Position numbers and translations under genes: made by a program. From assembly GCA_005223045.1 (NCBI GenBank), contig NJBM01000014.1, positions 62,001-126,000 on the forward strand: 64,000 bases of DNA. The letters are read 5' to 3'. Shown one piece after another: positions 25,243 to 46,840 of the stretch (position 1 is its first letter; every line of letters begins with the position of its first letter). The notes beneath the pieces are model-generated. The model ran no database searches and was not told where the DNA came from. It saw only the letters and a list, made by a program, of their open reading frames with translations. The DNA comes from Planctomycetes bacterium B3_Pla. GTDB taxonomy: Bacteria > Planctomycetota > Phycisphaerae > Sedimentisphaerales > Anaerobacaceae.

Positions 25243-26016
25243 ATGAAAAGAGTACTGTTAGTGTTGTGTTTTGCCGTCCTGACGGTGTCGTTCGGGTGTC
25301 AAAATCAGGACACTGCATCGACGCCGGTAATAGGAATCACGAGCGTCTATAAATTGAACGAGGACACCGGCTCGGAACAGACGTTTGTGAATTTCGCTTA
25401 TGTCCGGGCCGTAGCGGAGAACGGCGGCGCCCCGGTGGTATTGCCGACAATCGCCGATGATACGCTCTTGCAGAGATACATCGAAGAACTGGACGGCCTG
25501 GTGCTGGTTGGCGGCGCTGATATTCCCCCGTCGGCGTATGGACAGCAGCCCCACGAGACGGTCGTGCCGTTGACATCGCAGCGGTACAACTTCGAGCGAA
25601 AATTGATTAAGAAGTGGCTGGCCGGCGGAAAACCTTTGTTGGGCGTTTGCCTGGGAATGCAATTCACAAACGTTGTTTCCGGAGGATCGATGACCCAGGA
25701 CATTCCATCTCAGATAGGTGCGAAGGTGAACCACCGCGGGTATCACACCGTCCGGATTGAGCCGGACAGCTCTCTGGCGAAAATCCTCGGCGACGAAAAA
25801 GCGTCTGTCTGGTCAAACCACCACCAGGCCGTCAGAGACATAGGCAATGACCTGAGAATCATCGCTCACAGCGAAGACGGCATCGTCGAAGCCCTCGAAC
25901 GAATTGACGGCGGATTCGGCCTGTTCGTGCAGTGGCATCCGGAACAGATGGCCGACAAGCAGCACCGTAACGCAATCTACGGCGCTCTGGTCAAAGCATC
26001 AGCGTCGCGCAAATGA
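25243..26016 (+). CDS. Class I glutamine amidotransferase-like hydrolase (PuuD/peptidase C26), lipoprotein
   Basis: A 257-residue protein with lipobox VSFGC, followed by the gamma-glutamyl-GABA hydrolase fold (PVIGITSVY, GLVLVGGADIPPS). The catalytic triad is complete: Cys136 in LLGVCLGMQF, His232 and Glu234 in WHPEQ. Cytoplasmic PuuD cleaves gamma-glutamyl amides; the lipoprotein signal here is unusual and places the enzyme outside. TGAGGA supports the ATG at 25243, although ATGs at 25177 and 25189 are in frame. Its stop overlaps the convergent giant PQQ gene by 18 bases. Confidence 0.85.
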   Translation: MKRVLLVLCFAVLTVSFGCQNQDTASTPVIGITSVYKLNEDTGSEQTFVNFAYVRAVAENGGAPVVLPTIADDTLLQRYIEELDGLVLVGGADIPPSAYGQQPHETVVPLTSQRYNFERKLIKKWLAGGKPLLGVCLGMQFTNVVSGGSMTQDIPSQIGAKVNHRGYHTVRIEPDSSLAKILGDEKASVWSNHHQAVRDIGNDLRIIAHSEDGIVEALERIDGGFGLFVQWHPEQMADKQHRNAIYGALVKASASRK

Positions 26017-29000
26017 AACCGACGAGACGACCTCCACGCCCGACAATATCGGCAGTCCTGTGGCTTTCGGCGCTAACTCGATCTCCAAGTTGCGGCCAAC
26101 CCGAACACCGGGGAACTCTCGAACGACCGCCCTGTGAGAACCTCCGGCTTCCTTGACAAGGTCAAAGCCGGCAAGGACCGTCTGTCCCTGCAATTTGACA
26201 TCAAAGATTCGGCCGCCCGCCTGCTCGTTTTCCAGTTCCGCAAAATACAGCCTGACTGTATATTCGCGGGCCTTGTCGCCCTCGCCTAATAGTGGGATGA
26301 TGCATCGCTTTAGCCCGCGCCCGCAGGAGCTGAATACCCACGAGTTTTCGGCCCCGGCAACAGGTTGGCTCTCACTGTTCTGCCGGAAGTATCCGCCGCC
26401 TTTGAAGAATTCCGTTTGCAGCTTGAAAGAGAATCCCATTGCCGCTCTGTCGCCGGGCAATCCCGGTCGAGGATATCCGAACCACATTTCGCCGGCGGCG
26501 TCGCGCCTGTCGCCCGGTGCGCCCAGGTTAACCGCGAGACGCTGTACCGGAGTATAAGTGTTGGCGGCACTGTAGATTCCCCATCGCTCATGGTCGCGAC
26601 GAGGCTCCAGGGCGAGCGAACAGGTTATTGGATGCAGGCAAATGCACCCGGCGCTGGCTTCCGGGACAAGGGCAAGCCCGTCGGCGGGTATGGCGTTGAT
26701 CCAGCAGCCAAGCCTCTGGCCGGAGAAATGACGAATGCCACTGTCGTCCTGCAGGTCGTAATAGGAGGTATCGCCCGACCGCATCAGGAGCATCTGCGGC
26801 GATGCCGAGATCGCGCCGCAGTGATGGCCGGGCCGCAGGAACTGCCAGGGCGTCTCGACGCCGCTGACCGGATGGCAGCGAGTTTCCTGAACGCCGGTCT
26901 GCAGATTGTAGGCCCACGGTTCGGCAAGAACCGTATCGCCGATGATTACGGGTCGGTGACGGTAGTCGGCGTCCCGCGCCCACAGCAGCTCGCCGCTCTT
27001 GGCCGACAGCGCTACCAGTCGCCGTTGTGAGAATTCGCCCGCGAGGAACTGCCGCCAGTAATGACCGTTAGCGTTGGCCCCGCACAAAACCACGACGCCT
27101 TCACGATACATCAATGTCAGCTCACCGCCGCCGATTCCGATCTGGCTGCAATCTGTCACATCCACCGCTTCGCTCCAGAGTTTACCTCCGGTCCGGGCGT
27201 CCAAAGCGACGACCCGCCGGACATCAAGTTTCTTCTGGGCCTCTTCGGCCTTTTTTGCCTGCTCGCTGCTGAGACTCCGCAGGTGTGTCTTGTCCATCGC
27301 TAACAACGCCAGTCGCTGCTGCGGAGATATCGAGCTGTCAACGAAGAACAGCCAGCCATTGCCGATGGCGATTGTCAGGTTGACGATATTCTTGCCATCA
27401 CTACTCCATAGCGTTTTGCCGTCTTGCGTGTCAATCGCGAAGACAGAACTGGATACCCCCGTTCGCGTCAATGTGCTGCCGTACAGGATGCCGTCAACAC
27501 AGGCGATATATCCCCACTTTGGGGAACCTTTTGACTCGCCGGGAACGATATAAGTCGCGCGGGTCTCACCCGTCTCGGCGTCGAGCTTAAGGCACTTACT
27601 GCCGACCGCAACAAACAAACTGTCTTGTGAAGCCGCGATGTTGCCGCACTCGGCTTTTTTGAGTCGCGTGCGCATCGCCCCGGGAATCTCACGCTTCCAT
27701 AACTCCATACCGTTGTACGAATCATGAGCCATGATCATGTTCTCGCCCTGGATGAACAGTTTGCCGTTTATTGCAAGCGGCGCTGCGGCGGCATTGTGAC
27801 GGTTGACCATCGGCGCCGGCCCCGGCGCGCCGAACCACAGCAGGCCAAGCGGGCCACCGACAAGCTGATCGTCGCTGCAAGCGGTATTGCCCGGTTCGGC
27901 ATATTGGTGCGTCCATGCCCCGGCGCCGGACAGCGACCCGCGCTGCAACGTGGCCCAGATTCCGTTTGTCTGGCTGACCCGACACTGACCCAACTGCGAG
28001 CCGGCGATCCAGCGATTCAATTGATCCGAAGTTAACCGTTTGGCCTGATTCGGCGCGTTCGCAGGCACACCGAGACAGATAGCGCCGCCCCACGGCTTTA
28101 CATGCCGGGCAAGTTCGCCCGGATCACCCGGAATTTTCCCCGTCAGGAGCAAGCTGTCGGAAACTACAAGATTCGCAAAGTAATTTGAGTACGGCAGCTT
28201 TGAAATATCGCCCTGCTCGATAGTCACACGCTCGCCGTACAGCCCGGCTGCATCCAATGCTAATCTTGCCGCACGGGCTTTTTCGGCATCGGGTTCGACT
28301 CCGATAATCGTCAGTTCCGTGCGCAAAGCCAGCTCCCGAGCCAATCGGCCGCGCTCGGCGCCGAGCATAAGGCAATAGCCTTTCTTGACACCCGTCTCCA
28401 TGATGATAGCTTCGGCGGCAGCTTTATATGCATCGGTGAGACTGTCTTTAGGGTAGGGATTAGTAACCGGACGAACAATCGGATTTTTCTTTCTGGCCAT
28501 AGTTGCCGAGGCAAAGCAGTAAACCCTGCCCTTGTCCGTACTGACGTAGAGGCGTCCATTAGCCAAAGCCAGGCCGCGCGTCAGCCCATCGACTTCTGCG
28601 CTCCAGATTGATTCGCCGTTGTCCCGGTCAAACGCGCTGACTTTACCTTTTCCGCCGGCGATAACCACGTTGCCGCCCAGTATTAATTCTGCATCGCATT
28701 CACTTCGGACGCGCCACGGCACCGTTGGCGTGATTTTTTCCTTCCGATGCCTGTCCAGATCCTGACGCGCCGTCTTTAGCTCTTCTTCCAGCTTCGCACG
28801 CTGGTCGCCCTTGGCGCTCCTGACCTGGCTCGCCAATGTTTTGATCTTATGCTCCAATGAATTTCGACGGCCGCTGGCCTTCGCATAAGCGGATCGGTCC
28901 ATCGCGACAAGCTCGCGCCCGGTCGCCATGTAGGCCATGTTTCCTCCTACCGCGAGTCGCCGGCCGGGGAACCAGGCAAAACCAGTCTTGCCAGTCCTCT

Positions 29001-29925
29001 GATCGAGAGCCAGGAGGTGATTCTGCGTGCCGGTGTAGATTTGGTTGTCGGCCAGCAGCGCGTATGTGCCGCCGACAGCGCCTCCGGCCTGCTCGCCTCT
29101 CCAGCCGTATTTAGAACTGAACGCCATTCGCCCGTTCGTGCGGTCGAAAGCCACGGGCAAAGCCCTGCCGGACGGCACAAAAAGCCGGTTCCCGGAGGCC
29201 AGCAGATAACCCTGAGGCGTGAATTCGCTGCGGTTGGCGCTTTCCTGGCTGATCGTGTCGTTCTTCCAGACAGAAGAACCGTCGTTCACACGGACGGCGT
29301 GGAGGTACACATTCTCATGCGGGAAGATTCCTGCACCGAAGTACGCAATCCCCTCATCGACGATCACGCCGGTTCGGACAGGCCAGCGGGAGATCATCTT
29401 GCCGTGCCCCAGAAGCCTCTCATCGTTCGGCCCCCCGCGCAATTTCCAGAGCAACTTCCCGTCATCCGCATTCAGGCAGTAAACGAAGCCGTCATCCGAG
29501 CCAAACAACAGCCGACCTTTCGAGACGGTCGGCGCGAGCCGAACCGGGCCGCCGGTAAAGAAAGACCAGCGCTCTTGCCCAGTGGTCGCATCGAGGGCAT
29601 AGACCTTATTGTCGGACGAGGACCCGAAATATACCAAATCACCTGCGGCGGCAACCTGAAAGGCATCGTCGAAAATTACCCGGTGGCGCAGTTGCCAGCC
29701 CTCTCGCGGACGCATGGCGGGCCTCGGCCATGCCGGGCGAGGAGGATGGACCGGAACATAAACCCAATCCAGCGCCAATGGCGCCGCCAACGATTCTGCC
29801 GTACAGCCGCTGCGAGCATTGTCATGGCGATAAGTCGGCCAGTCCGCCGCTGAGGCCGCCGAGCCCAAAAGGATCACTCCCACAAAAACGCAGGTGGACA
29901 ATTGACGAGATTTTGTAGTTACCAT
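25999..29925 (-). CDS. Giant exported PQQ-propeller protein with inserted methyltransferase-like domain and C-terminal malectin domain
   Basis: A 1308-residue protein. It has a Sec signal (VFVGVILLGSAASA). Residues about 90-350 and 410-475 are PQQ/BamB-type propeller blades (VYALDATTGQERWSF), interrupted by a coiled coil (352-398). Residues about 500-660 form a class I SAM-methyltransferase-like fold (GYCLMLGAERGRLAREL, IIGVEPDAEKARAARLALD, QGDISKLPYSN). Residues about 670-1150 form a second propeller (LLWFGAPGPAPMV), and about 1170-1308 a malectin-like carbohydrate-binding domain (YTVRLYFAELENEQAGGRIFDV). GAAGGAG supports the ATG at 29925. A methyltransferase outside the cytoplasm would lack SAM, so the domain may be non-catalytic. 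It is the last gene of a minus-strand group. Confidence 0.85.
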   Translation of the reverse strand: MVTTKSRQLSTCVFVGVILLGSAASAADWPTYRHDNARSGCTAESLAAPLALDWVYVPVHPPRPAWPRPAMRPREGWQLRHRVIFDDAFQVAAAGDLVYFGSSSDNKVYALDATTGQERWSFFTGGPVRLAPTVSKGRLLFGSDDGFVYCLNADDGKLLWKLRGGPNDERLLGHGKMISRWPVRTGVIVDEGIAYFGAGIFPHENVYLHAVRVNDGSSVWKNDTISQESANRSEFTPQGYLLASGNRLFVPSGRALPVAFDRTNGRMAFSSKYGWRGEQAGGAVGGTYALLADNQIYTGTQNHLLALDQRTGKTGFAWFPGRRLAVGGNMAYMATGRELVAMDRSAYAKASGRRNSLEHKIKTLASQVRSAKGDQRAKLEEELKTARQDLDRHRKEKITPTVPWRVRSECDAELILGGNVVIAGGKGKVSAFDRDNGESIWSAEVDGLTRGLALANGRLYVSTDKGRVYCFASATMARKKNPIVRPVTNPYPKDSLTDAYKAAAEAIIMETGVKKGYCLMLGAERGRLARELALRTELTIIGVEPDAEKARAARLALDAAGLYGERVTIEQGDISKLPYSNYFANLVVSDSLLLTGKIPGDPGELARHVKPWGGAICLGVPANAPNQAKRLTSDQLNRWIAGSQLGQCRVSQTNGIWATLQRGSLSGAGAWTHQYAEPGNTACSDDQLVGGPLGLLWFGAPGPAPMVNRHNAAAAPLAINGKLFIQGENMIMAHDSYNGMELWKREIPGAMRTRLKKAECGNIAASQDSLFVAVGSKCLKLDAETGETRATYIVPGESKGSPKWGYIACVDGILYGSTLTRTGVSSSVFAIDTQDGKTLWSSDGKNIVNLTIAIGNGWLFFVDSSISPQQRLALLAMDKTHLRSLSSEQAKKAEEAQKKLDVRRVVALDARTGGKLWSEAVDVTDCSQIGIGGGELTLMYREGVVVLCGANANGHYWRQFLAGEFSQRRLVALSAKSGELLWARDADYRHRPVIIGDTVLAEPWAYNLQTGVQETRCHPVSGVETPWQFLRPGHHCGAISASPQMLLMRSGDTSYYDLQDDSGIRHFSGQRLGCWINAIPADGLALVPEASAGCICLHPITCSLALEPRRDHERWGIYSAANTYTPVQRLAVNLGAPGDRRDAAGEMWFGYPRPGLPGDRAAMGFSFKLQTEFFKGGGYFRQNSESQPVAGAENSWVFSSCGRGLKRCIIPLLGEGDKAREYTVRLYFAELENEQAGGRIFDVKLQGQTVLAGFDLVKEAGGSHRAVVREFPGVRVGRNLEIELAPKATGLPILSGVEVVSSVSFARR

Positions 29926-30181
29926 TGCACTTACTCCTTCAACTCCAGAAAATTGCATGTACAATCCGGCCGAGAGGAAAGGCGAAGGCCACACAGCACT
30001 ACACGCGCAACCCAAGACCAGAAGAATCCCTGATTCAAAGGCGGTTCTTGAAAACCAAGTTTACCAGAACGGACCTGTAATGCAAGAAACTCCAGTTCAT
30101 CTCCAGGACCGGGCGAGTTTCCCGCGTGTGCAAAACAAAGCTTGCACAGCCGGCCTGCAGTGACAGTTCGCAGTTCAGTTT

Positions 30182-31898: not shown

Positions 31899-34409
31899 CT
31901 ACTGAGAATCAGAATCGTAGAGTCTCCGGCCCTCGCTAATAGCGCGGCGGCTGGATATTTCCGCCTGCTGACGCATTGCGTAGTCCTGCTGACGCCGCTG
32001 ATCGGTTGGGCACGCCTCGAAACCCGGCATGTCCGCTCGCGGGCGTCGTTCCAGCATTTGCCTGCCGGCTTCGATGATTGCCACAGCCTCAAGGTACTCG
32101 GCAGCGCCGGTGTCCTCGAACTTAGCCAGGCACGGACTCATTCGCGGCCGGTCGAAGCTTACCTGCGGCCCGGCATTCTGCGAGTGAGTGGCCAGCTTCG
32201 CAAATGACACGCCCGTCAGTTCGGTAAGTCGCTTGAGCTGCTTGTTATCGAGCGGGCATCGCCCGGCAAGATTGTCCGGATAGGCACAATCGTAGCGAGG
32301 ATAATACGGCGCATTAAGGTCGATCCACGTTACGACACGCTCGAATTCGTCCTCATTTAATTCGACGCCGAAATGTCCCGCGCGAATCACCTTGACAAGC
32401 CTGCTGACCTGCGAACCCCACGAGCCGGCCCCCTGCGTGTCGGATGGCCCGGCGCCGATGGCCCGGATGTACTTCTTGCGCCACAATTCGTTGTAAGAGG
32501 TGTTGAACGTGTTGGTGCGGTCGCCTGCGAGATTGAGCGTCTTGCCGGCCTCCTGACCGTAGTCGTGACAACTGACACAGTGCCTGTCGAAAACAGGCTG
32601 CACCTCGCGTATGTAGCTAAACAATCGCGGCTCTCCCTTCCAGCCGTTAAGTTTGCTCGGCGGCCCCTCCAAAGCCATCGGCGTCTTTTTCCTAACCTGC
32701 CCCGGCGCCTCCCGGCGATTTTCATGGCAGCCCGTGCAGCCTGTTACCTCGCCCGACTGAACGACCGTTCCGCTGCGCATCGACTGCACCATCATCTTCT
32801 TGTGATCGAGAAGTTGAAAGTAAACGAACCTGTCCGAGGGCACCTCGAAATAAGCCGAGCCGTCCGCGGCCACCGGAACGGTGCCGAGAATTCGTTTGTT
32901 CTCGAAACTGTGCCAATTCAGGGCCGGGCAATGCACGCCCTGACCGCCCCACTGCGCATGCGTCCAGAAACGCTTTTCGGGCGATTCGACCACGCGCAGA
33001 TACTTCACCGCCCCGCGACTCACACCCTCCATGTGCGTCCCCTCGTAAACATTCAGGATGTAGAAGTACCCTTTCTCGTCCTTGAAGTCACGCCGGGACG
33101 GTACGACCATCGGCCTGTGCCGCGGCCCCATCGGCATAGGATCGAAACAGCCTGGCCCCTCGGTGTGCAGCAGTATCTCGTTGCCAAACGTATCGATCAG
33201 GTAAATCCCCATCTGCTCGCCCTGCCCGGTCATGCGCGAACAGAGGAAATATTTGTCATTCAGCGGATATGGATCTTCATACTTCGGATTCACCTTTTGG
33301 AACTTGTCAAATCCATACACATCAGGCCTGGGGCCCGCCTCGGTCACAAGATTGATCGCACCGGCGTCCCATGTGCGAACGACCGGCTTTCGGCCGTCAA
33401 CGCCAAGCCGCCGGTCAATGATAGCCAGCGCCCCCCAAGGACGGTCATGGCACGAGCCGAAAACGCACAGAACCTGCTCGGTGCCGGGGATGGCGCGGGC
33501 ATCGATCACGCCGCCGGGAGACCACGTATTGTTGCCCCAATAGACCGCTTGGTTCGTGCCGTCAGGGTTTATCGTCCAAAGCCCCTGGGCATCCCCGAAA
33601 TTGCGGTCCACGTACTCCCAGCGGTCGTAGAGTATTCGCCCATCCGGCATAAGTGCGGCGTGGCCCTCGTGCAGTGTGCTCTTGCCGACCTGATGGATGT
33701 TGGCGCCGTCGGCGTCCATCCGAAAGAGGTTGCCCATTATGTGGCGGTTGCACATGCAATATTTAGGCTCGCGCGTCGAAGAGAAGACAATGCTGTCATC
33801 CGGCAGATATAGAGGATCGAAATCCGCCACGCCGAGTGCGCAGGTAAGCTGCCTCAGCCCCGTGCCGTCGGCGTTGATCTCGTAGATATGGTAATCGTCC
33901 TTGATGTCTTTCCGCATGGAAAAGACGATTTTGCCGCCGTCGAAATGAATCTCAGGGTCGCGCATGAGACCTTCGGACGTTTCGATCAAAGTTGTGACTT
34001 TACCTCCTCGGGCGAAGTCTATGGTCTTCATCGCCCCGCCGCCTCGAAAGCTCTTCGTGTTGATCTCGCCGGTCTTAAAAATCGTCGCGCTGTTGTGATG
34101 ATCGCTCTTGTACTGGGCCCGCATGATAAACAGAATCGGCTCGCCGCTAACCAAAGGATTAGAAATGAGCGCTTCCCGCCGGAGCGATCTAAATTCCGCC
34201 TGATTCCAACGCCGTTCGATATCGCGCAGCTTCGTCAGATACTCGCCGCCGTTTGGATATTTGTCGCCGAAGGCCCTCGTCAGGTCTTCTATCGCCGCGG
34301 TCAATGCCGCCGCCTCTTCGGCTGGGACTTTAGCTTCGCATATATCCGGCAGACCCAACAAGAAAACCGCCAAAACAGCCGCAAATACACCTCGAACATA
34401 GGTTGACAT
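31899..34409 (-). CDS. Exported TolB/PD40-propeller protein with two c-type heme-like motifs (HzsA-related type)
   Basis: An 836-residue protein with a signal peptide (VFAAVLAVFLLGLPDICEA). The N-terminal two thirds are PD40/TolB propeller blades (IYEINADGTGLRQLTC, LFRMDADGANIHQVG), and the C-terminal third has CxxCH motifs in TGCTGCHENRR and RHCVSCHDYG. This layout matches proteins I remember as hydrazine-synthase-alpha ('HzsA')-related in planctomycetes that do not perform anammox. It may be an extracytoplasmic electron-transfer or cytochrome enzyme. GAGGTGAAG supports the ATG. There is no hydrazine synthase beta/gamma partner nearby, so a hydrazine role is not implied. Confidence 0.85.
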   Translation of the reverse strand: MSTYVRGVFAAVLAVFLLGLPDICEAKVPAEEAAALTAAIEDLTRAFGDKYPNGGEYLTKLRDIERRWNQAEFRSLRREALISNPLVSGEPILFIMRAQYKSDHHNSATIFKTGEINTKSFRGGGAMKTIDFARGGKVTTLIETSEGLMRDPEIHFDGGKIVFSMRKDIKDDYHIYEINADGTGLRQLTCALGVADFDPLYLPDDSIVFSSTREPKYCMCNRHIMGNLFRMDADGANIHQVGKSTLHEGHAALMPDGRILYDRWEYVDRNFGDAQGLWTINPDGTNQAVYWGNNTWSPGGVIDARAIPGTEQVLCVFGSCHDRPWGALAIIDRRLGVDGRKPVVRTWDAGAINLVTEAGPRPDVYGFDKFQKVNPKYEDPYPLNDKYFLCSRMTGQGEQMGIYLIDTFGNEILLHTEGPGCFDPMPMGPRHRPMVVPSRRDFKDEKGYFYILNVYEGTHMEGVSRGAVKYLRVVESPEKRFWTHAQWGGQGVHCPALNWHSFENKRILGTVPVAADGSAYFEVPSDRFVYFQLLDHKKMMVQSMRSGTVVQSGEVTGCTGCHENRREAPGQVRKKTPMALEGPPSKLNGWKGEPRLFSYIREVQPVFDRHCVSCHDYGQEAGKTLNLAGDRTNTFNTSYNELWRKKYIRAIGAGPSDTQGAGSWGSQVSRLVKVIRAGHFGVELNEDEFERVVTWIDLNAPYYPRYDCAYPDNLAGRCPLDNKQLKRLTELTGVSFAKLATHSQNAGPQVSFDRPRMSPCLAKFEDTGAAEYLEAVAIIEAGRQMLERRPRADMPGFEACPTDQRRQQDYAMRQQAEISSRRAISEGRRLYDSDSQ

Positions 34410-38422: not shown

Positions 38423-39358
38423 ATGGCACTCCAACCGGATAAATCAGGGCCGGAGACAAGCGGCTACGTCTTCGACATCAAGAAATATGCCATACATGAC
38501 GGGCCGGGCATACGGACCACCGTCTTTTTCAAAGGCTGCCCCCTGCAATGCCGATGGTGCCACAATCCCGAAAGCTGGAAAAAAAGCCCGGAGCCAGGCT
38601 TTCGCAGCGTTCGCTGTGTGAGATGCGGTCAATGCGTCGAATCATGCCAGGAGCAGGCCATCTCATTTACCGATAACGGACCTGTAACAGCCGTGGACAA
38701 ATGCAATGTGTGCGGTGAATGTGTGAGTGTTTGCCTGAGCAGTGCGCGAGAGATAATCGGGCAAGAGTTGACCGTTCGCAAGGTTATGAATGAGATCGAA
38801 AAAGACATCATTTTTTACGATGAGTCGGGCGGCGGCGCAACTTTCTCCGGCGGCGAGCCGCTGATGCAGCCGGATTTCCTGCTGGCCCTGCTGAATCAGT
38901 GCCGAAGACAGGGAATACACACCGCTGTAGATACGACCTGCCATGCAAAACCCGAGATCATGAAGAAAGTCGCCGGGCAAACGGACTTGTTTCTCTGTGA
39001 CCTCAAGTGTATGGACCCGGCTTTGCACAGAGATTTTACGGGTGTGGACAACGAGCTGATATTGTATAATATAAGATGTCTGTCGGACGCCGGGAAGAGA
39101 ATAGTGATCAGAGTGCCGATTATCCCCGGCTTTAACGACGACGAGGCTAATATCGAGACGACGGCGGAATTTGTCAAATCGCTGGGCAATGTCAGCGAAA
39201 TTGATATTCTGCCGTACAACAGTGGTGGAAAAGAGAAATCGGCCCGATTGACAGCCGAGTTCGACCTTATGGAGACCGAAGTCCCGGGGGGGCAGAGTAT
39301 GGCCGCGATTGCAGATGCTCTCAGAGGCTACGGATTCGACGTCAAGACAGGGGGCTAA
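38423..39358 (+). CDS. Glycyl-radical enzyme activase (radical SAM)
   Basis: A 311-residue radical SAM protein. The cluster motif is CPLQCRWC (CxxxCxxC), followed by a dicluster ferredoxin insert with CVRCGQCVESC and CNVCGECVSVC. This is the normal layout of activases for PFL-like dehydratases and lyases. SGGEPLMQPDF and the VPIIPGFNDDE segment agree. It installs the glycyl radical on the next gene's product and needs anaerobic conditions. GAGG upstream supports the ATG at 38423; an ATG at 38372 is possible but would overlap a candidate -10 element. The enzyme gene starts four bases after its stop. Confidence 0.93.
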   Translation: MALQPDKSGPETSGYVFDIKKYAIHDGPGIRTTVFFKGCPLQCRWCHNPESWKKSPEPGFRSVRCVRCGQCVESCQEQAISFTDNGPVTAVDKCNVCGECVSVCLSSAREIIGQELTVRKVMNEIEKDIIFYDESGGGATFSGGEPLMQPDFLLALLNQCRRQGIHTAVDTTCHAKPEIMKKVAGQTDLFLCDLKCMDPALHRDFTGVDNELILYNIRCLSDAGKRIVIRVPIIPGFNDDEANIETTAEFVKSLGNVSEIDILPYNSGGKEKSARLTAEFDLMETEVPGGQSMAAIADALRGYGFDVKTGG

Positions 39359-39362
39359 TGAT

Positions 39363-41729
39363 ATGAACGAAAGAGTAAGAAAGCTGCGTCAGCAGAGCGT
39401 CGAGACCAGACCGTACATCTCGACCGAGCGGGCGGAACTGATAACCGAGTTCTACCGCAGCGACGCCCCTCTGAGCAAATCTGTCCCGGTCTGCCGTGCC
39501 TTATCGTTCAAGCACATCATGGAACATAAGACCGTCTGTATAAACGATGGTGAGCTTATCGTAGGCGAGCGCGGCCCGGCGCCCAAGGCTACGCCCACTT
39601 ATCCCGAATTGTGCTGTCACAGCACCGACGACCTTCGAATACTCGACAGCCGGGAAAGAACACCCTTCGCAATCTCGGAAGAAGTCAAAAAGACTTATCA
39701 AGAGAAGATCATCCCCTTCTGGGCCGGCAAGACTATACGGGAGAAAGTCTTCGCGGCAATGGACGAAGAGTGGCACCGGGCGTTCAACGCCGGAGTGTTC
39801 ACGGAATTTATGGAGCAGCGCGCGCCGGGGCACGCCATTCTCGACGATAAGATTTACCGCAAAGGGATGCTGGACTTTAAGCGCGACATTGCCGAGAACC
39901 GTGAGAAACTCGACTATTTCAACGACCCCCGCGCTTACGAAAAAGAGCAGGAATACCAGGCTATGGAAATCTGTGCCGATGCGATTATTGCTTTCGCGCA
40001 GCGGCACGCTGACAAGGCAGAACAACTCGCACAACAAGAAACTGATCCTGTCCGGCGAGGCGAGCTGGAACGGATAGCCGACATCTGTTTACACGTTCCG
40101 GCGCATGCGCCGCGCGATTTCCAGGAGGCATTGCAGTCATACTGGTTCGTACACTTGTCGGTGATAACGGAGCTGAATACCTGGGATTCATTCAATCCGG
40201 GCCGGCTCGACCAGCACCTGCTGCCGTTCTATGAGAAGGGTTTGCAGGATGGGACGTTGACGCCCGAGCAGGCCGAAGAACTGTTGCAGTGCTTCTGGAT
40301 CAAGTTCAACAATCAGCCGGCCCCTCCCAAAGTGGGTGTGACCGAGCAGCAAAGCGGCACTTACACCGATTTCGCCCTGATCAATATCGGCGGACTCAGG
40401 CCAGGCGACGGAACCGACGGCGTTAATGACATCTCGTACATGATGTTGAGTGTAGTGGACGAGATGCATCTGACCCAGCCCAGCGCGTGCATTCAGATTA
40501 GCAAGAGGAATACGGACCGTTTCCTCAAGCGCGCCTGCGAGGTGATTCGCACGGGAACCGGACAACCCTCCGTGTTCAACACGGACGTTATCATCAAGGA
40601 AATGCTCCAGGACGGCAAGAGCATGACGGACGCCCGCAGCGGCGGGCCAAGCGGCTGCGTTACGGTCAGCTCATTCGGCAAAGAAAGCTGCACCCTGACC
40701 GGCTACATAAACTGGCCGAAGATTCTGGAACTTGCCTGCTATGACGGCATCAATCCCGGCTCAGGCGAGCAGGTCGGCCCACGGACGGGAGATGCCCGCC
40801 GGTTCACATCCTACCGGCAGATGATGGATGCCTACACCAAACAGCTCGAGTATTTCATCGACTTGAAAATCCGGGGCAACAACGTCATCGAGCGAATTTT
40901 CGCCAATCATATACCCGCGCCGTTCATGTCAATCGTGATGGACGATTGTATCGCCCGCGGGCTGGATTACCACAACGGCGGAGCGCGGTACAACCCGACA
41001 TACATTCAGGGAGTCGGCATCGGCACGGTGACCGATTCGTTGGCGGCGGTAAAGCGCCACGTATTCGAGCAGCAAGATGTCACAATGGATGAATTGCTGG
41101 CCGCGATGAAAGCCGATTTTGACGGATACGAGCATTTACAGCACACGCTGTTCGAACATTCACCCAAGTACGGCAACGACGACGATTATGCCGACAGCAT
41201 CACCGAGGAAGTATTTGACGCTTATTACGATTTGCTCAACGGCCGTCCGAATACCAAGGGCGGAAAATATCGCGTCAACCTTCTGCCTACAACAGTTCAC
41301 ATTTATTTCGGCTCGGCAACGGGCGCGCTTCCATGCGGCCGGAGGGCGGGCGAGCCGGTCTCGGAGGGTATCTCGCCCAGCCGGGGCGGCGACCGCCACG
41401 GGCCTACCGCCGTTGTCAAGTCGGCGGCGAGAATCGACCACGCCCGCACGGGGGGGACGCTTCTGAATATGAAGTTTAATCCGCAGGTGCTGGCCGGCGA
41501 GGACGGTATCGAGAAGCTGGCACATCTGATCAGGGCCTACTTCAAGCTGGACGGTCACCATATCCAGTTCAACGTCACCACCGCCGAGACGCTGCGAGAG
41601 GCCCAGCAGAATCCCGAACACCATCGAGACCTGATCGTAAGAGTGGCCGGTTACAGCGATTATTTCGTGGACGTGGGCCGGGACCTGCAGGAGGAAATCA
41701 TCGCCCGCACCGAGCAGCAGGCACTATAA
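39363..41729 (+). CDS. Glycyl-radical enzyme, HypD/dehydratase-like with altered GCVE motif
   Basis: A 788-residue PFL-family protein. The glycyl radical loop is RVAGYSDYF with Gly763. The thiyl-radical cysteine is Cys432 in GPSGCVTVSSFGKE. The surrounding SSFGKESCTLTGYINWPKILEL resembles trans-4-hydroxyproline dehydratase (HypD), and the residue numbers and length are almost the same as I remember for HypD. However, the catalytic Glu two residues after the Cys in the dehydratases (GCVE) is Thr434 here. The reaction may therefore differ from dehydration. AGGGGG precedes the ATG. The downstream peptidase, symporter and prolidase-type genes point to proline- or hydroxyproline-related substrates. 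Confidence 0.9.
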   Translation: MNERVRKLRQQSVETRPYISTERAELITEFYRSDAPLSKSVPVCRALSFKHIMEHKTVCINDGELIVGERGPAPKATPTYPELCCHSTDDLRILDSRERTPFAISEEVKKTYQEKIIPFWAGKTIREKVFAAMDEEWHRAFNAGVFTEFMEQRAPGHAILDDKIYRKGMLDFKRDIAENREKLDYFNDPRAYEKEQEYQAMEICADAIIAFAQRHADKAEQLAQQETDPVRRGELERIADICLHVPAHAPRDFQEALQSYWFVHLSVITELNTWDSFNPGRLDQHLLPFYEKGLQDGTLTPEQAEELLQCFWIKFNNQPAPPKVGVTEQQSGTYTDFALINIGGLRPGDGTDGVNDISYMMLSVVDEMHLTQPSACIQISKRNTDRFLKRACEVIRTGTGQPSVFNTDVIIKEMLQDGKSMTDARSGGPSGCVTVSSFGKESCTLTGYINWPKILELACYDGINPGSGEQVGPRTGDARRFTSYRQMMDAYTKQLEYFIDLKIRGNNVIERIFANHIPAPFMSIVMDDCIARGLDYHNGGARYNPTYIQGVGIGTVTDSLAAVKRHVFEQQDVTMDELLAAMKADFDGYEHLQHTLFEHSPKYGNDDDYADSITEEVFDAYYDLLNGRPNTKGGKYRVNLLPTTVHIYFGSATGALPCGRRAGEPVSEGISPSRGGDRHGPTAVVKSAARIDHARTGGTLLNMKFNPQVLAGEDGIEKLAHLIRAYFKLDGHHIQFNVTTAETLREAQQNPEHHRDLIVRVAGYSDYFVDVGRDLQEEIIARTEQQAL

Positions 41730-41811: not shown

Positions 41812-43506
41812 ATGAAAGGAAATGTAGGGTGTGCTACAGCACACCTTTTGACTCTGTGCGTTCTGCCGCTTCTTCTTTTCGGCTGTGCGCATAACGCCCA
41901 GGAGAGGCAGTTGCAGGAATTCATCACGGCTTACGAGACAAAGATCGAACCCTTGTCCACCCAGACCAATCTAACCTACTGGGACGCATCAACTACCGGC
42001 AAGGCTGAGTTCTATGAAAAGCTCAGTGAATTGCAGACCAGGATTCGCCAGATTCATAGCAATCAGCAGGAATACGACTTTCTCAAAGATACAAAAGAAG
42101 CGGGACAAATTAAAGATGCCCGGCTGGCCCGGCAGTTAGACAAACTTTACTTCGCATATAAGCAGAATCAGATAGAGCCGGAGTTGTTGAAGAAGATCGT
42201 TGATGCGGACACGAAGGTGCAGGAAAAGTACAACAACTTTCGCGGCACCATGGAGGGCAAGAAAGTCACCAACAGCGACGTCTATACAATCCTGACGACG
42301 GAGAAGGACTGCCGCAAAAGGGAATTGGCCTGGAAGGCGAGCAAGCAAGTCGGGGAGGCGATCATCGATGAATTTCTCCAATTGGTAAAGCTGCGCAACG
42401 CCGCGGCGCAAAAGCTTGGCTTCGACAATTACCATACACTCTCGATAGTCACGGGCGAGCAGAGCATAGAAGAGCTGGACCGTATCTTCGATGACCTCAG
42501 CGAATTGACCGGCGAACCCTTCGCCCGGCTGAAGCAGGAACTCGACGGTATTTTGGCAAACGACTACGGCATCGCGCCGGAGGATTTGATGCCCTGGTAC
42601 TATCACGATCCATTTTTTCAGAGGACCCCTTTGGTGTATGACCTGGATTTGGACACCTATTACAAAAACCAGGACGTCAAGGAATTAGCGGAAGACTATT
42701 ATGCCGGCATCGGTCTTCCTGTGGATGATATTCTCGCCAAGAGTGATTTATATGACCGCGAAGGCAAGTATCCCCATGCTTTTAGCTTTGAAGGAGACCG
42801 GCATGGAGACGTTCGCATCTTGTGCAACCTTCAGAATACCGAACGCTGGATGGAGACTATATTGCATGAATTGGGTCATGCCGTTTACAGCAAGTATCAC
42901 AACCGCGAAGAGCCCTGGTTGCTCAGAGAGCCGGCACACAGTTTCACAACTGAAGCGATTGCGATGTTCTTCGGACGCTTGAGCCGCAATCCCGTCTGGA
43001 TGCAGAAGATGCTCGGTCTGGCGGACAAAGAGAGGGCGGAAATCGAAGGGATCAGCAGGAAATACTTGCAGTTCCAGCAGGTCCTGTTTACCCGATGGGC
43101 GATGGTAATGTACAGCTTTGAAAAGCAGCTTTACGCCGATCCCGATCAGGATTTGAACGATTTGTGGTGGGACCTAGTTGAGAAATATCAGCTCATCAAG
43201 AGGCCGCCGGGGCCAGCCGACGCGGGCTGGGCTTCCAAGCTGCATTTCACGACGGCGCCCTGTTACTATCACAACTATATGTTGGGTGAATTATTGGCCT
43301 CTCAACTGCACCACCATGTTGTCCACGAAGTTCTCAGGCTCGAATCCGACCACGACGTCAGTTATGTGGGCGACACGGCCCTCGGGGATTATCTGCGCAG
43401 GAAAGTCCTCGGCCCCGGTGCTCGCTACCACTGGAATGATATGATCGAACGAGCAACCGGCGAGCCGCTGACGCCTAAATACTTTGTCGAACAATTCGTG
43501 CAATAA
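41812..43506 (+). CDS. M2/M3-like zinc peptidase lipoprotein
   Basis: A 564-residue gluzincin with lipobox LLFGC. Zinc motif HELGH at residues 352-356 and a likely third ligand Glu in HSFTTEAIAMFFG about 25 residues later. The helical body and the C-terminal APCYYHNYMLGELLASQL segment fit M3/M2 (oligopeptidase or ACE-like) families. It probably cleaves oligopeptides at the cell surface. GGAG precedes the ATG. It lies between the glycyl-radical enzyme and the symporter; the 82-base repeat-filled upstream gap leaves cotranscription likely but not certain. Confidence 0.88.
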   Translation: MKGNVGCATAHLLTLCVLPLLLFGCAHNAQERQLQEFITAYETKIEPLSTQTNLTYWDASTTGKAEFYEKLSELQTRIRQIHSNQQEYDFLKDTKEAGQIKDARLARQLDKLYFAYKQNQIEPELLKKIVDADTKVQEKYNNFRGTMEGKKVTNSDVYTILTTEKDCRKRELAWKASKQVGEAIIDEFLQLVKLRNAAAQKLGFDNYHTLSIVTGEQSIEELDRIFDDLSELTGEPFARLKQELDGILANDYGIAPEDLMPWYYHDPFFQRTPLVYDLDLDTYYKNQDVKELAEDYYAGIGLPVDDILAKSDLYDREGKYPHAFSFEGDRHGDVRILCNLQNTERWMETILHELGHAVYSKYHNREEPWLLREPAHSFTTEAIAMFFGRLSRNPVWMQKMLGLADKERAEIEGISRKYLQFQQVLFTRWAMVMYSFEKQLYADPDQDLNDLWWDLVEKYQLIKRPPGPADAGWASKLHFTTAPCYYHNYMLGELLASQLHHHVVHEVLRLESDHDVSYVGDTALGDYLRRKVLGPGARYHWNDMIERATGEPLTPKYFVEQFVQ

Positions 43507-43570
43507 CGATCAAGACCACCATGAACAACTGTACCAACCTCGGTTGCCAACATACGCTGTGGAGCAATAC

Positions 43571-45454
43571 ATGACTTATTTGGTCGCTATATTTATCTAC
43601 TTGTTCGTCCTGGCGGGCATCGGCATCTACAAGTCGCGACAGGTCAAGACGCAGGAGGATTTCACCGTCGCCGGGCGCACTCTTTCGCCGTGGATAATGG
43701 TCTGTACAATGCTCGCCGTCTGGATCGGGACCGGCTCGATCGTGGGCAACGCCGGCAAGACTTATCAAGTCGGCATGTCGGCCTTATGGCTGCCGTGCGG
43801 GACCTTCATAGGAATGATTCTGCTTTCTTTTATCGCCACCCGTGCGCGCAACATCGAGGCGCTGACCGTGCCGGAGATAATCGGCAGGCGCTTCGGCGGC
43901 CAAGCGAGGATATTGGCCGTCGTGGCTCTGATCGTCGCCTACATGGTGATTGTCAGTTACCAGTTCAATGCCGGCGGCATGGTTCTGGAAGTAATCGCGG
44001 GCCAGAAGGACAAAGTCACACTCAGTACGGGCAGCCTGCTGACCAAAAGGCAGGTCCGCAAAGGCTATTTCAGGTATGAACCGCCGGCGGACTGGATGGG
44101 CGCTGCGCACATTGGTTTCGACGCCAGGGACAAGAGCACGGGGCAGTGGTCCGGCGGCGCCGAGCGGTTCACCGTTCTGGTCGTGCCTTCGGCCCGAATC
44201 ATTGGAGTCAAAGAGGCCCTGGAGGCGGCGCGCAACGAAGCCTCCATCGCACCCCTTGTTGAGGCGGTCGGCTCCCTCGATGTCATCGGCGCAGCCGAGA
44301 TCGAGGGCCTGGACAATCTCGACAACGTCGTCGCTATCAAGCAAAATACAATCACCCGGATTACGATTACCGGGCACGGCGAGGGCTTTGCCGGCAACGA
44401 GCAAATCTTCCGGCTGGCCGGGCCGCCGAAAACGGGAAATGCGTATCTGCATGAACCCAAGCTGACTTCGGAGAAGGCCACGATCATCGCTGCGGTTTTC
44501 ATCGTGGCCTATACCATGTTGGCCGGCCTGATGAGCCTGGCCTTTGCCGATGTCGTCACCGGAACCGTGATCATGGGGACTTTGCTGATTGCGTTTCCCA
44601 TCGCATTGATCAAAGCGGGCGGTATCTCCGGCATGGAAGCGGCCTTCGCGGAAATGGCCGACCGGCCCGATCACATGCGGATGTTGGGCGTGTGGGGGGC
44701 CGTGGATTACATCAACTTCTGTCTGCCCGTGTTTCTGCTTGTACTGGGCGACGCCAATCAATACCAACGCATTTTTGCCAGCCGCAATGCCAAAGGAGCC
44801 AGGACGGCTGTAATCATCATGATCTTTGTCGCCTTGATCATTGAAGAGCTAATCATCGCCGAAGCATGGTTTGCCAGCAGCCTGATACCCGATCCCGAAA
44901 ATGGACGCTTTGTCCTGATCTATGCCGCCCGGCACTTTATGCCGCTTGCTCTCGGACTGCTTTTCATGATAACCGTCGTGGGGATCATCATCTCCACCGC
45001 CGACTCATTCCTGCTGGTGCCCGCCACGACCTTCATCAAGGACGTTTATCAGGCGCACATCAACCCAAAGGCGCCGGAGAAGAAAATCGTCTTTATGAGC
45101 CGCCTGATGGTGTTGACCTTTGGAGTAATTGCCTGGCTCATTTCACTGGCATTCGCCGAGAGCACGACCGTTTTTGAAAAGTCGCTGTACGCCTTCACAG
45201 TTTACGGCTCGGCCATCACGCCGTGCCTGGTGGCGGCACTGTTCTGGAAGGGGGCGACCAAAGCGGGTGCAATCAGCTCGATCCTCGCCGGCACCGTCAC
45301 CACGCTCCTGTGGGGAGAAGTGCTGAAGGACCGCCTGCCCGCCCATGTGGCCAGGCTCGACGCAGTGCTGCCCGCGATAACACTCTCGGTCGTTTGCCTG
45401 ATAGTCGTCAGTCTCTTGACTCGAAATCCACAGCTAACCGGAGGTGATTCATAA
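43571..45454 (+). CDS. Sodium:solute symporter (SSS family) with periplasmic insert domain
   Basis: A 627-residue transporter of the PutP/SGLT family. The helices begin TYLVAIFIYLFVLAGIGIY and LSPWIMVCTMLAVWIGTGS, and the core signatures include LVLGDANQYQRIFASRNAKG and ISTADSFLLVPATTF. Between the fourth and fifth helices an insert of about 160 residues (about 143-302) replaces a short loop; it is soluble-looking and likely periplasmic. GGAG supports the ATG at 43571. The stop abuts the aminopeptidase P ATG (TAA immediately before ATG), so the two are cotranscribed. Substrate is probably an amino acid or small peptide-derived compound. Confidence 0.9.
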   Translation: MTYLVAIFIYLFVLAGIGIYKSRQVKTQEDFTVAGRTLSPWIMVCTMLAVWIGTGSIVGNAGKTYQVGMSALWLPCGTFIGMILLSFIATRARNIEALTVPEIIGRRFGGQARILAVVALIVAYMVIVSYQFNAGGMVLEVIAGQKDKVTLSTGSLLTKRQVRKGYFRYEPPADWMGAAHIGFDARDKSTGQWSGGAERFTVLVVPSARIIGVKEALEAARNEASIAPLVEAVGSLDVIGAAEIEGLDNLDNVVAIKQNTITRITITGHGEGFAGNEQIFRLAGPPKTGNAYLHEPKLTSEKATIIAAVFIVAYTMLAGLMSLAFADVVTGTVIMGTLLIAFPIALIKAGGISGMEAAFAEMADRPDHMRMLGVWGAVDYINFCLPVFLLVLGDANQYQRIFASRNAKGARTAVIIMIFVALIIEELIIAEAWFASSLIPDPENGRFVLIYAARHFMPLALGLLFMITVVGIIISTADSFLLVPATTFIKDVYQAHINPKAPEKKIVFMSRLMVLTFGVIAWLISLAFAESTTVFEKSLYAFTVYGSAITPCLVAALFWKGATKAGAISSILAGTVTTLLWGEVLKDRLPAHVARLDAVLPAITLSVVCLIVVSLLTRNPQLTGGDS

Positions 45455-46840
45455 ATGTTTGCCCCAAACGTATATATCGAAAGAAGAAAACGCCTGCGAA
45501 CCGACGTCGAGTCGGGCGTGATTCTGTTCTTAGGCAATGAAGAAAGCCCTATGAACTATCCTGACAATCAATATCCCTTTCGGCAGGACAGTTCGTTTCT
45601 CTATTTCTTCGGGCTTGACTGCCCCGGACTGGCCGCTGTTATTGACATTGACCAGGGCAGCGAGTGTATCTTCGGCGACGATCTTACCGTTGACGATATT
45701 GTCTGGACCGGTCCGCAGCCACCGTTAAGAGAAAAATGCCAAGAGGTCGGTATTTCTCAGACTGCCGCACACGATCAACTGCCGGTGACGTTGATAAGAG
45801 CTGCTGAGCAGGGCAGAACCATCCATTTTCTGCCCCAATATCGGGCCGACAATGTTCTGAAGATCGAGCAGTTGCTGGCAATCCCACCGGCGGTAATTGA
45901 GGATCACGACTCGGAGAGATTGATCAGGGCGGTCATCGCACAAAGGTCCATAAAGGCCGAAGAGGAAATTACGCAAATTGAAGCGGCCCTGGACATTGCA
46001 TACGAGATGCAGACAACAGCAATGAAGATGTCGAAACCAGGCGTCTATGAGCGCCAGATCGCCGGGGCTATGGAGGCAATCGCACTCTCGCATGGGGGAC
46101 GCCTGTCATTCCCCACAATTTTCTCAATCCACGGCGAAACGCTTCACAACCACTATCATGGAAATCTGATGAAAGACGGCGACATTGCCGTAAACGATTC
46201 GGGGGCGGAATCCCCATCTCACTACACGAGTGACATTACCAGGACGATTCCCGTCAGTGGAAAATTCTCGCAGAGACAAAAAGAAATCTATGCTATCGTT
46301 TTGGACGCACAAAACAAAGCGATTGAAGCAGTCAAGCCCGGCGTTGAATTCAGAGATATTCATCGCCTCGCGTCTGAAGTTCTCGTATCGGGGCTGAAAG
46401 ACCTTGGACTTGTCAAGGGCAACGTGACCGAGGCGGTGCAGGCCGGAGTTCACACATTGTTCTTTCAGTGCGGCTTAGGGCACATGATGGGGCTTGACGT
46501 CCATGACATGGAGGGACTGGGGGAAGATTATGTCGGCTATACCGACACCATCAAGCGCAATCCGGAGTTTGGCTGGCGCTCGTTGAGGCTGGCAAAGGCA
46601 CTCAAACCCGGATTTGTCATCACCGTAGAGCCGGGGCTGTACTTCATCCCTGAGTTGATCGACCGCTGGAAAACCGAGCAGAAGAACGCGCAGTATATCA
46701 ATTACGATGCCGTCGAGAAATACAGGGATTTCGGCGGAATCAGGATAGAAGACGACGTGCTGGTAACGCAGCAGGGCTGCCGCATATTAGGCAAGCCTAT
46801 ACCCCGGACCATCGAAGAAGTTGAAGCGATGTCCTCGTAA
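45455..46840 (+). CDS. Xaa-Pro aminopeptidase (aminopeptidase P, M24B)
   Basis: A 461-residue pita-bread metallopeptidase. The N-terminal AMP_N domain (NVYIERRKRLRTDVESGVI) is followed by the catalytic domain with metal ligands Asp in NDSGAES, Asp in SDITRTIPV, His in GHMMGLDVHDMEG, Glu in VEPGLYF and Glu in GIRIEDDVLV. It removes N-terminal residues before proline (or hydroxyproline). The ribosome site is GGAGGTG in the end of the symporter gene. Context with a HypD-like enzyme and a symporter supports prolyl-peptide catabolism. Confidence 0.94.
   Translation: MFAPNVYIERRKRLRTDVESGVILFLGNEESPMNYPDNQYPFRQDSSFLYFFGLDCPGLAAVIDIDQGSECIFGDDLTVDDIVWTGPQPPLREKCQEVGISQTAAHDQLPVTLIRAAEQGRTIHFLPQYRADNVLKIEQLLAIPPAVIEDHDSERLIRAVIAQRSIKAEEEITQIEAALDIAYEMQTTAMKMSKPGVYERQIAGAMEAIALSHGGRLSFPTIFSIHGETLHNHYHGNLMKDGDIAVNDSGAESPSHYTSDITRTIPVSGKFSQRQKEIYAIVLDAQNKAIEAVKPGVEFRDIHRLASEVLVSGLKDLGLVKGNVTEAVQAGVHTLFFQCGLGHMMGLDVHDMEGLGEDYVGYTDTIKRNPEFGWRSLRLAKALKPGFVITVEPGLYFIPELIDRWKTEQKNAQYINYDAVEKYRDFGGIRIEDDVLVTQQGCRILGKPIPRTIEEVEAMSS

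Follow-up and report, generated by a model that had tools for sequence, protein, structure and literature searches.

A Cys-x-Thr variant of the glycyl radical enzyme HypD in a planctomycete peptide-degradation operon, predicted to be a hydroxyproline dehydratase

The window analysed here is a stretch of 64,000 nucleotides from contig NJBM01000014.1 of Planctomycetes bacterium B3_Pla (assembly GCA_005223045.1). It contains an operon in which an activase, a glycyl radical enzyme, an M2/M3-like peptidase, an SSS symporter and an Xaa-Pro peptidase follow one another in one direction. The genes, and the residues of the enzyme that are discussed below, are located as follows.

38423..39358, forward strand: glycyl-radical-enzyme activase (radical SAM and ferredoxin-type clusters), start codon set from the translation
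39363..41729, forward strand: HypD-like glycyl radical enzyme, Thr-form, 788 aa, with Pfam PFL-like and Gly_radical domains
39831..39833, forward strand: His157, equivalent to HypD His160, invariant
40185..40187, forward strand: Asp275, equivalent to HypD Asp278 (proposed base/acid, PMC7077986), invariant
40656..40664, forward strand: Cys432-Val433-Thr434, codons TGC GTT ACG, equivalent to HypD Cys434-Val-Glu436
40995..40997, forward strand: Pro545, equivalent to HypD Thr547, a site that changes along with residue 434
41301..41303, forward strand: Ile647, equivalent to HypD Ile649, the associated site ranked second
41649..41651, forward strand: Gly763, the glycyl radical site, equivalent to HypD Gly765 by alignment
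41812..43506, forward strand: M2/M3-like zinc metallopeptidase with a signal-type N-terminus (Pfam M2 8e-25, M3 1e-17), a conserved neighbour
43484..45454, forward strand: SSS-family symporter, closest to PutP-type models (Pfam SSF in two stretches; TIGR02121 158 bits)
45455..46840, forward strand: Xaa-Pro aminopeptidase/prolidase-type M24B peptidase (Pfam AMP_N and Peptidase_M24)

The activase scores 354 bits against TIGR02494, the GRE-activase family (cut-off 174), and its stop codon lies 4 nt before the ATG of the enzyme, which places a cognate activase directly alongside. Its best equivalog is NF043069, the HypD activase, at 377 bits, under the cut-off of 425. The top NCBIfam models for the M24B peptidase are Xaa-Pro aminopeptidase and Xaa-Pro dipeptidase, both under their cut-offs. 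The start of the symporter probably lies downstream of the listed TTG. Its SSF domain is split by an insert of about 150 aa that has no Pfam match, and the length of the symporter varies between operons.

The enzyme is about 56% identical to the trans-4-hydroxy-L-proline dehydratase HypD of C. difficile (6vxc) in phmmer and MAFFT alignments, and it passes the HypD equivalog NF043068 with 1249 bits (cut-off 1100). It is the sole match to the glycyl-radical domain PF01228 in its genome. The catalytic Cys434 and the radical Gly765 of HypD are both present, as Cys432 and Gly763, and Asp278, Asp339, His160, Ser334, Phe340, Tyr450 and Thr645 are all matched. The Glu436 of the CXE motif is absent, and Thr434 aligns with it in both the phmmer and the MAFFT alignments. 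The Cys loop thus reads Cys-Val-Thr where glycyl radical eliminases are recognized by Cys-x-Glu, and for this reason the enzyme is filed as a HypD-type variant and not as HypD proper. A sequence-only reading of this DNA had described a HypD-like enzyme with Cys-Val-Thr in place of C-x-E, an intact radical Gly763 and a complete neighbouring activase; all of these observations are confirmed.

The fold points to the same relative. The top Foldseek match is 6vxc (TM 0.94), far above glycerol dehydratase, the N-methyl-hydroxyproline dehydratases and others. The likeness to C. difficile HypD (6vxc/6vxe) covers the fold over the whole length, the adjacent activase and every substrate contact and catalytic residue but one. 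The differences are Thr for Glu436, Pro for Thr547, Ser for Gly438, several second-shell substitutions and the setting of the window enzyme in a peptide-degradation operon. Identity to all relatives other than HypD is 22–36%. The N-methyl-4-hydroxyproline dehydratases 8id1 and 8iof (presumably HpyG and HpzG, with reactions as given in the PDB titles) also dehydrate a hydroxyproline derivative by glycyl radical chemistry, but they are only about 33% identical and both keep Cys-Val-Glu. HplG (7vua), which acts in anaerobic hydroxyproline degradation via C-N cleavage, is likewise a hydroxyproline-degrading glycyl radical enzyme, but is 30% identical. The B12-independent glycerol dehydratase (1r8w) and CutC (5fau) share the fold, the Cys loop and the Gly loop, but they are 33–36% identical and retain the Glu of C-V-E, which is proposed as their base. 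By its own account, the sequence-only reading would be overturned by placement in a characterized subfamily from which the Glu is naturally absent; none was found, 8id1 and 8iof both having the Glu. A PDB search with a segment of the enzyme returned CutC alone beyond HypD, and another, with a consensus composed ad hoc for the glycyl loop, yielded no useful match. No description of a Thr-type HypD was found in the open literature, with subscription journals outside the coverage, so its novelty is provisional; open papers likewise yielded no description of the N-methyl-hydroxyproline dehydratases.

The importance of the missing residue has been established in C. difficile HypD, where the mutants C434S, E436Q, H160Q, D278N, D339N, S334A and F340A are all inactive (PMC7077986). 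In the mechanism proposed there, Asp278 acts as base towards the amine and as acid towards the departing hydroxyl, while the 4-OH is held in position by Glu436, itself hydrogen-bonded to His160 (PMC7077986). Glu436 is therefore essential in HypD without being its proposed general base, unlike the Glu of the diol dehydratases, CutC and IslA (PMC7077986). The sequence-only reading had named this Glu as the general base of HypD, glycerol dehydratase and CutC; this agrees with what is proposed for the latter two, but for HypD it conflicts with the structure paper. Since E436Q inactivates the C. difficile enzyme (PMC7077986), loss of the Glu is not trivially tolerated.

The same mutant could be taken to mean that the window enzyme is decaying or inactive, or that the codon carries a sequencing or assembly error. 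A scan of contigs across genomes returned 80 loci in a first set, with Thr in 36 rows, the window included. The enlarged genome set holds 109 non-redundant sequences: 51 with Thr, 11 with Glu and Ser438 and 47 canonical forms with Glu and Gly438. The 58 Glu-forms are thus made up of the 11 Ser438-type sequences, which belong to the same subfamily as the Thr-forms, and the 47 canonical ones. Thr-forms occur mostly in Planctomycetota, with single or few copies in metagenome-assembled genomes (MAGs) labelled Thorarchaeota, Latescibacteria and Lentisphaeria. Reading frames are intact in dozens of MAGs, and pairwise dN/dS values of 0.05–0.14 among the homologues reflect strong purifying selection. 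A change from ACG to GAR takes two substitutions, and the recurrence of Thr in 51 of the 109 homologues, from independent assemblies, rules out chance as well as the error that the earlier reading had considered at this codon. The absence of the Glu is a conserved trait of a subfamily. With Thr fixed across phyla and the activase and operon retained, decay or error has a negligible probability. HypD residues F152, H160, W277, D278, K326, S334, D339, F340, Y450 and T645 are invariant in 109/109 sequences, whether these carry Thr or Glu.

The Thr-forms and the Ser438-type Glu-forms fall together on one side of a branch with an SH-aLRT of 100. Fixed differences of this subfamily from canonical HypD lie in the second shell and include Y144F, T161A, E333Q, N342L, T431P, G438S and Y445C, among others. 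Counting supported branches, residue 436 has changed no fewer than six times within the subfamily, and a topology that unites all Thr-forms in one clade is rejected (p-AU 5.8e-6), in a tree built without columns 436 and 547. Across six independent pairs with unlike residues at 436, HypD site 547 shifts the same way in 5.3 and the opposite way in 0.1, which places it at the top of 448 variable columns; site 649 is second. With only six pairs a sign test is bounded at about 0.03–0.06, so it is the ranking and not a p-value that bears weight for site 547. Of the 51 Thr-forms, 44 have Pro at this position; none of the 58 Glu-forms does. At position 649, Thr-forms have Ile and canonical Glu-forms mostly Val.

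The gene order of the window recurs around the Thr-forms L002, L005, L006, L012 and L053, and around L021 from the enzyme onward. It is also found around Glu-forms of the subfamily, at L041 (L178 lies on the same contig) and at L015, where the peptidase ORF is split in two. The same order surrounds the canonical HypD of Planctomycetota at six loci (L032, L033, L037, L038, L174 and L175), and Xaa-Pro peptidases adjoin canonical HypD in some Chloroflexota (L039, L049, L052 and L068). The other loci of the subfamily retain just the activase and the enzyme.

The two forms also replace one another in place. Five genomes of genus g5 carry Glu and one carries Thr; the Thr-form L170 and the Glu-form L176 of this genus have the same genes on either side, 75% and 86% identical. 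Within genus g273, the Thr-form L021 and the canonical HypD L175 occupy the same operon. Their peptidases, symporters and Xaa-Pro peptidases are 79%, 82% and 75% identical and the flanks 68–69%, whereas the enzymes are 66% identical. The L021 enzyme is 80% identical to that of the window, against 62–70% for the operon genes of these two loci. In the symporter tree, the Thr-form loci L016 and L021 join the canonical loci L032, L033 and L175 with a support of 100, in conflict with the enzyme tree. As the downstream genes are alike, the enzymes unlike and the trees discordant, the enzyme has most likely been exchanged within a retained operon, judging from these sequence comparisons. The upstream join of L021 is doubtful: the activase and the N-terminal 74 residues of the enzyme are absent, but from residue 75 onward the enzyme is contiguous with the downstream genes. 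On the chromosome of this MAG (G399:C1), positions 3580436-3580888 and 5889170-5891305 hold, 2.3 Mb apart, a detached HypD-like N-terminal fragment (66% identity) and the truncated enzyme, which suggests a mis-join.

The motif is present in 73 of 148 genomes of the order, as 40 Thr, 16 Glu/Ser and 18 Glu/Gly copies. None of the 148 has both a subfamily enzyme and a canonical HypD, against 6.7 expected (Fisher p about 1e-4, a significance inflated by kinship since related genomes are counted as independent). A whole-protein search of 31 genomes returned one HypD-like copy in each, the exceptions being a MAG with two Thr copies and another with split pieces.

These data bear on the suggestion, made in the sequence-only reading, that the loss of the Glu signals another reaction. 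Glycyl radical enzymes that are not eliminases are known to lack the Glu of CXE, and its absence here might accordingly mark a wholly different chemistry, such as C-N cleavage, decarboxylation or addition. Such a change is very unlikely, as the enzyme is 56% identical to HypD against 22–36% to all others, the catalytic set of HypD is complete save for the Glu, and Thr-forms interchange with Glu-forms. The suggestion is not favoured by the interconversion of Thr- and Glu-forms within one clade and at the same site in sister species, nor by an operon for prolyl peptides that is shared with canonical HypD, which never occurs in one genome with the subfamily. The companion suggestion of another residue as the base fares better: that a different residue or arrangement may do the job fits these observations more readily than a different reaction.

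The window enzyme is therefore likely, though by no means certain, to dehydrate hydroxyproline as a member of a separate HypD subfamily whose Cys-x-Glu motif has become Cys-x-Thr; the activity is predicted from sequence. The interchange with Glu-forms in an unchanged prolyl-peptide operon and the integrity of the other catalytic residues argue for the same net reaction. This is most likely the conversion of Hyp to P5C, with both substrate and product deduced from the comparisons above. The Thr-form would probably do the job of HypD by a slightly different route. If the reaction is the same, the missing Glu would signify an altered way of holding the leaving hydroxyl, coupled to site 547.

In the proposed pathway, the M2/M3-like and Xaa-Pro peptidases would process peptides rich in Hyp and Pro, and the symporter would import the product. 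The activase would generate the radical on Gly763, and Cys432 would abstract a hydrogen from C5 of Hyp. Asp275 would deprotonate the amine and then protonate the departing 4-OH. The role of Glu436 and His160 in holding this hydroxyl may have passed to a re-packed pocket, in which Thr434, the freed invariant His157 or water would be the candidate groups to meet the 4-OH, with Pro545 and Ile647 as putative coupled changes. The AlphaFold model has a pLDDT below 50 in the pocket (residues 150-156, 326-336, 641-648 and 755-775), and no claim about contacts is drawn from these low-confidence loops. The P5C released would be reduced by ProC. A proC (P5C reductase) match above cut-off lies at G000:C17 in the window's genome, outside the operon; an aldehyde dehydrogenase of this genome scores under the P5C-dehydrogenase cut-off.

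The chief rival to a hydroxyproline dehydratase is that the subfamily as a whole has moved to another substrate, as the second-shell differences from canonical HypD could indicate. The Thr-form would then act on a related compound, e.g., a different isomer of hydroxyproline or a derivative with a modified 4-oxygen, and a different group at C4 would account for the loss of the Glu. In keeping with such a shift, eight to ten residues of the second shell near His160, Ser334 and the Cys loop have become fixed in states unlike those of canonical HypD, Thr is strictly retained in many genera and the activase falls under the HypD-activase cut-off. However, the second-shell changes are also found in Glu-forms of the same clade, and the switch between Thr and Glu recurs while operon and chromosomal place stay unchanged. 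All direct substrate contacts are invariant, and canonical HypD substitutes for the Thr-form in the same operon. A related substrate is thus a possibility of modest weight, unlikely overall. A stronger version, in which the Thr-subfamily dehydrates a substrate new to glycyl radical enzymes (e.g., a modified or isomeric hydroxyproline) and Glu/Thr acts as a natural substrate switch within one operon type, is also improbable.

A Glu that is essential in C. difficile HypD has been removed by nature repeatedly among close relatives, with the operon and the remaining pocket kept. Natural pairs of about 80% identity (e.g., the Thr-form L170 and the Glu-form L177) separate what is needed for the chemistry from what is needed in one scaffold, and site 547 is a specific partner site and a candidate for compensation. 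The Thr variant is hidden when HypD is annotated by family model. The range of probable anaerobic hydroxyproline breakdown now takes in Planctomycetota of sediments as well as genomes assigned to Thorarchaeota.

In two MAGs labelled Thorarchaeota (L043, 7941-12317, and L045, 7992-12346) the Thr-type enzyme is immediately followed downstream by ribosomal protein genes. These are annotated as L3, L4 and L2 in L043, and the gene lengths in L045 are identical. With ribosomal protein genes adjoining, this neighbourhood gives no functional hint. A MAG of the Lentisphaeria (G414, locus L057) has nine matches to glycyl radical enzymes, eight of them at 29–37% identity to the query. Elsewhere in the window, the product of a reverse-strand gene at 31899-34409 combines the middle domain of hydrazine synthase alpha (PF18582) with CxxCH motifs of the haem type, and members of this protein's cluster occur close to the enzyme in L016, L026 and L036. 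A 1338-aa ORF at 25999-30015, also on the reverse strand, combines PQQ-type propeller stretches with a malectin domain and a stretch that appears methyltransferase-like by eye.
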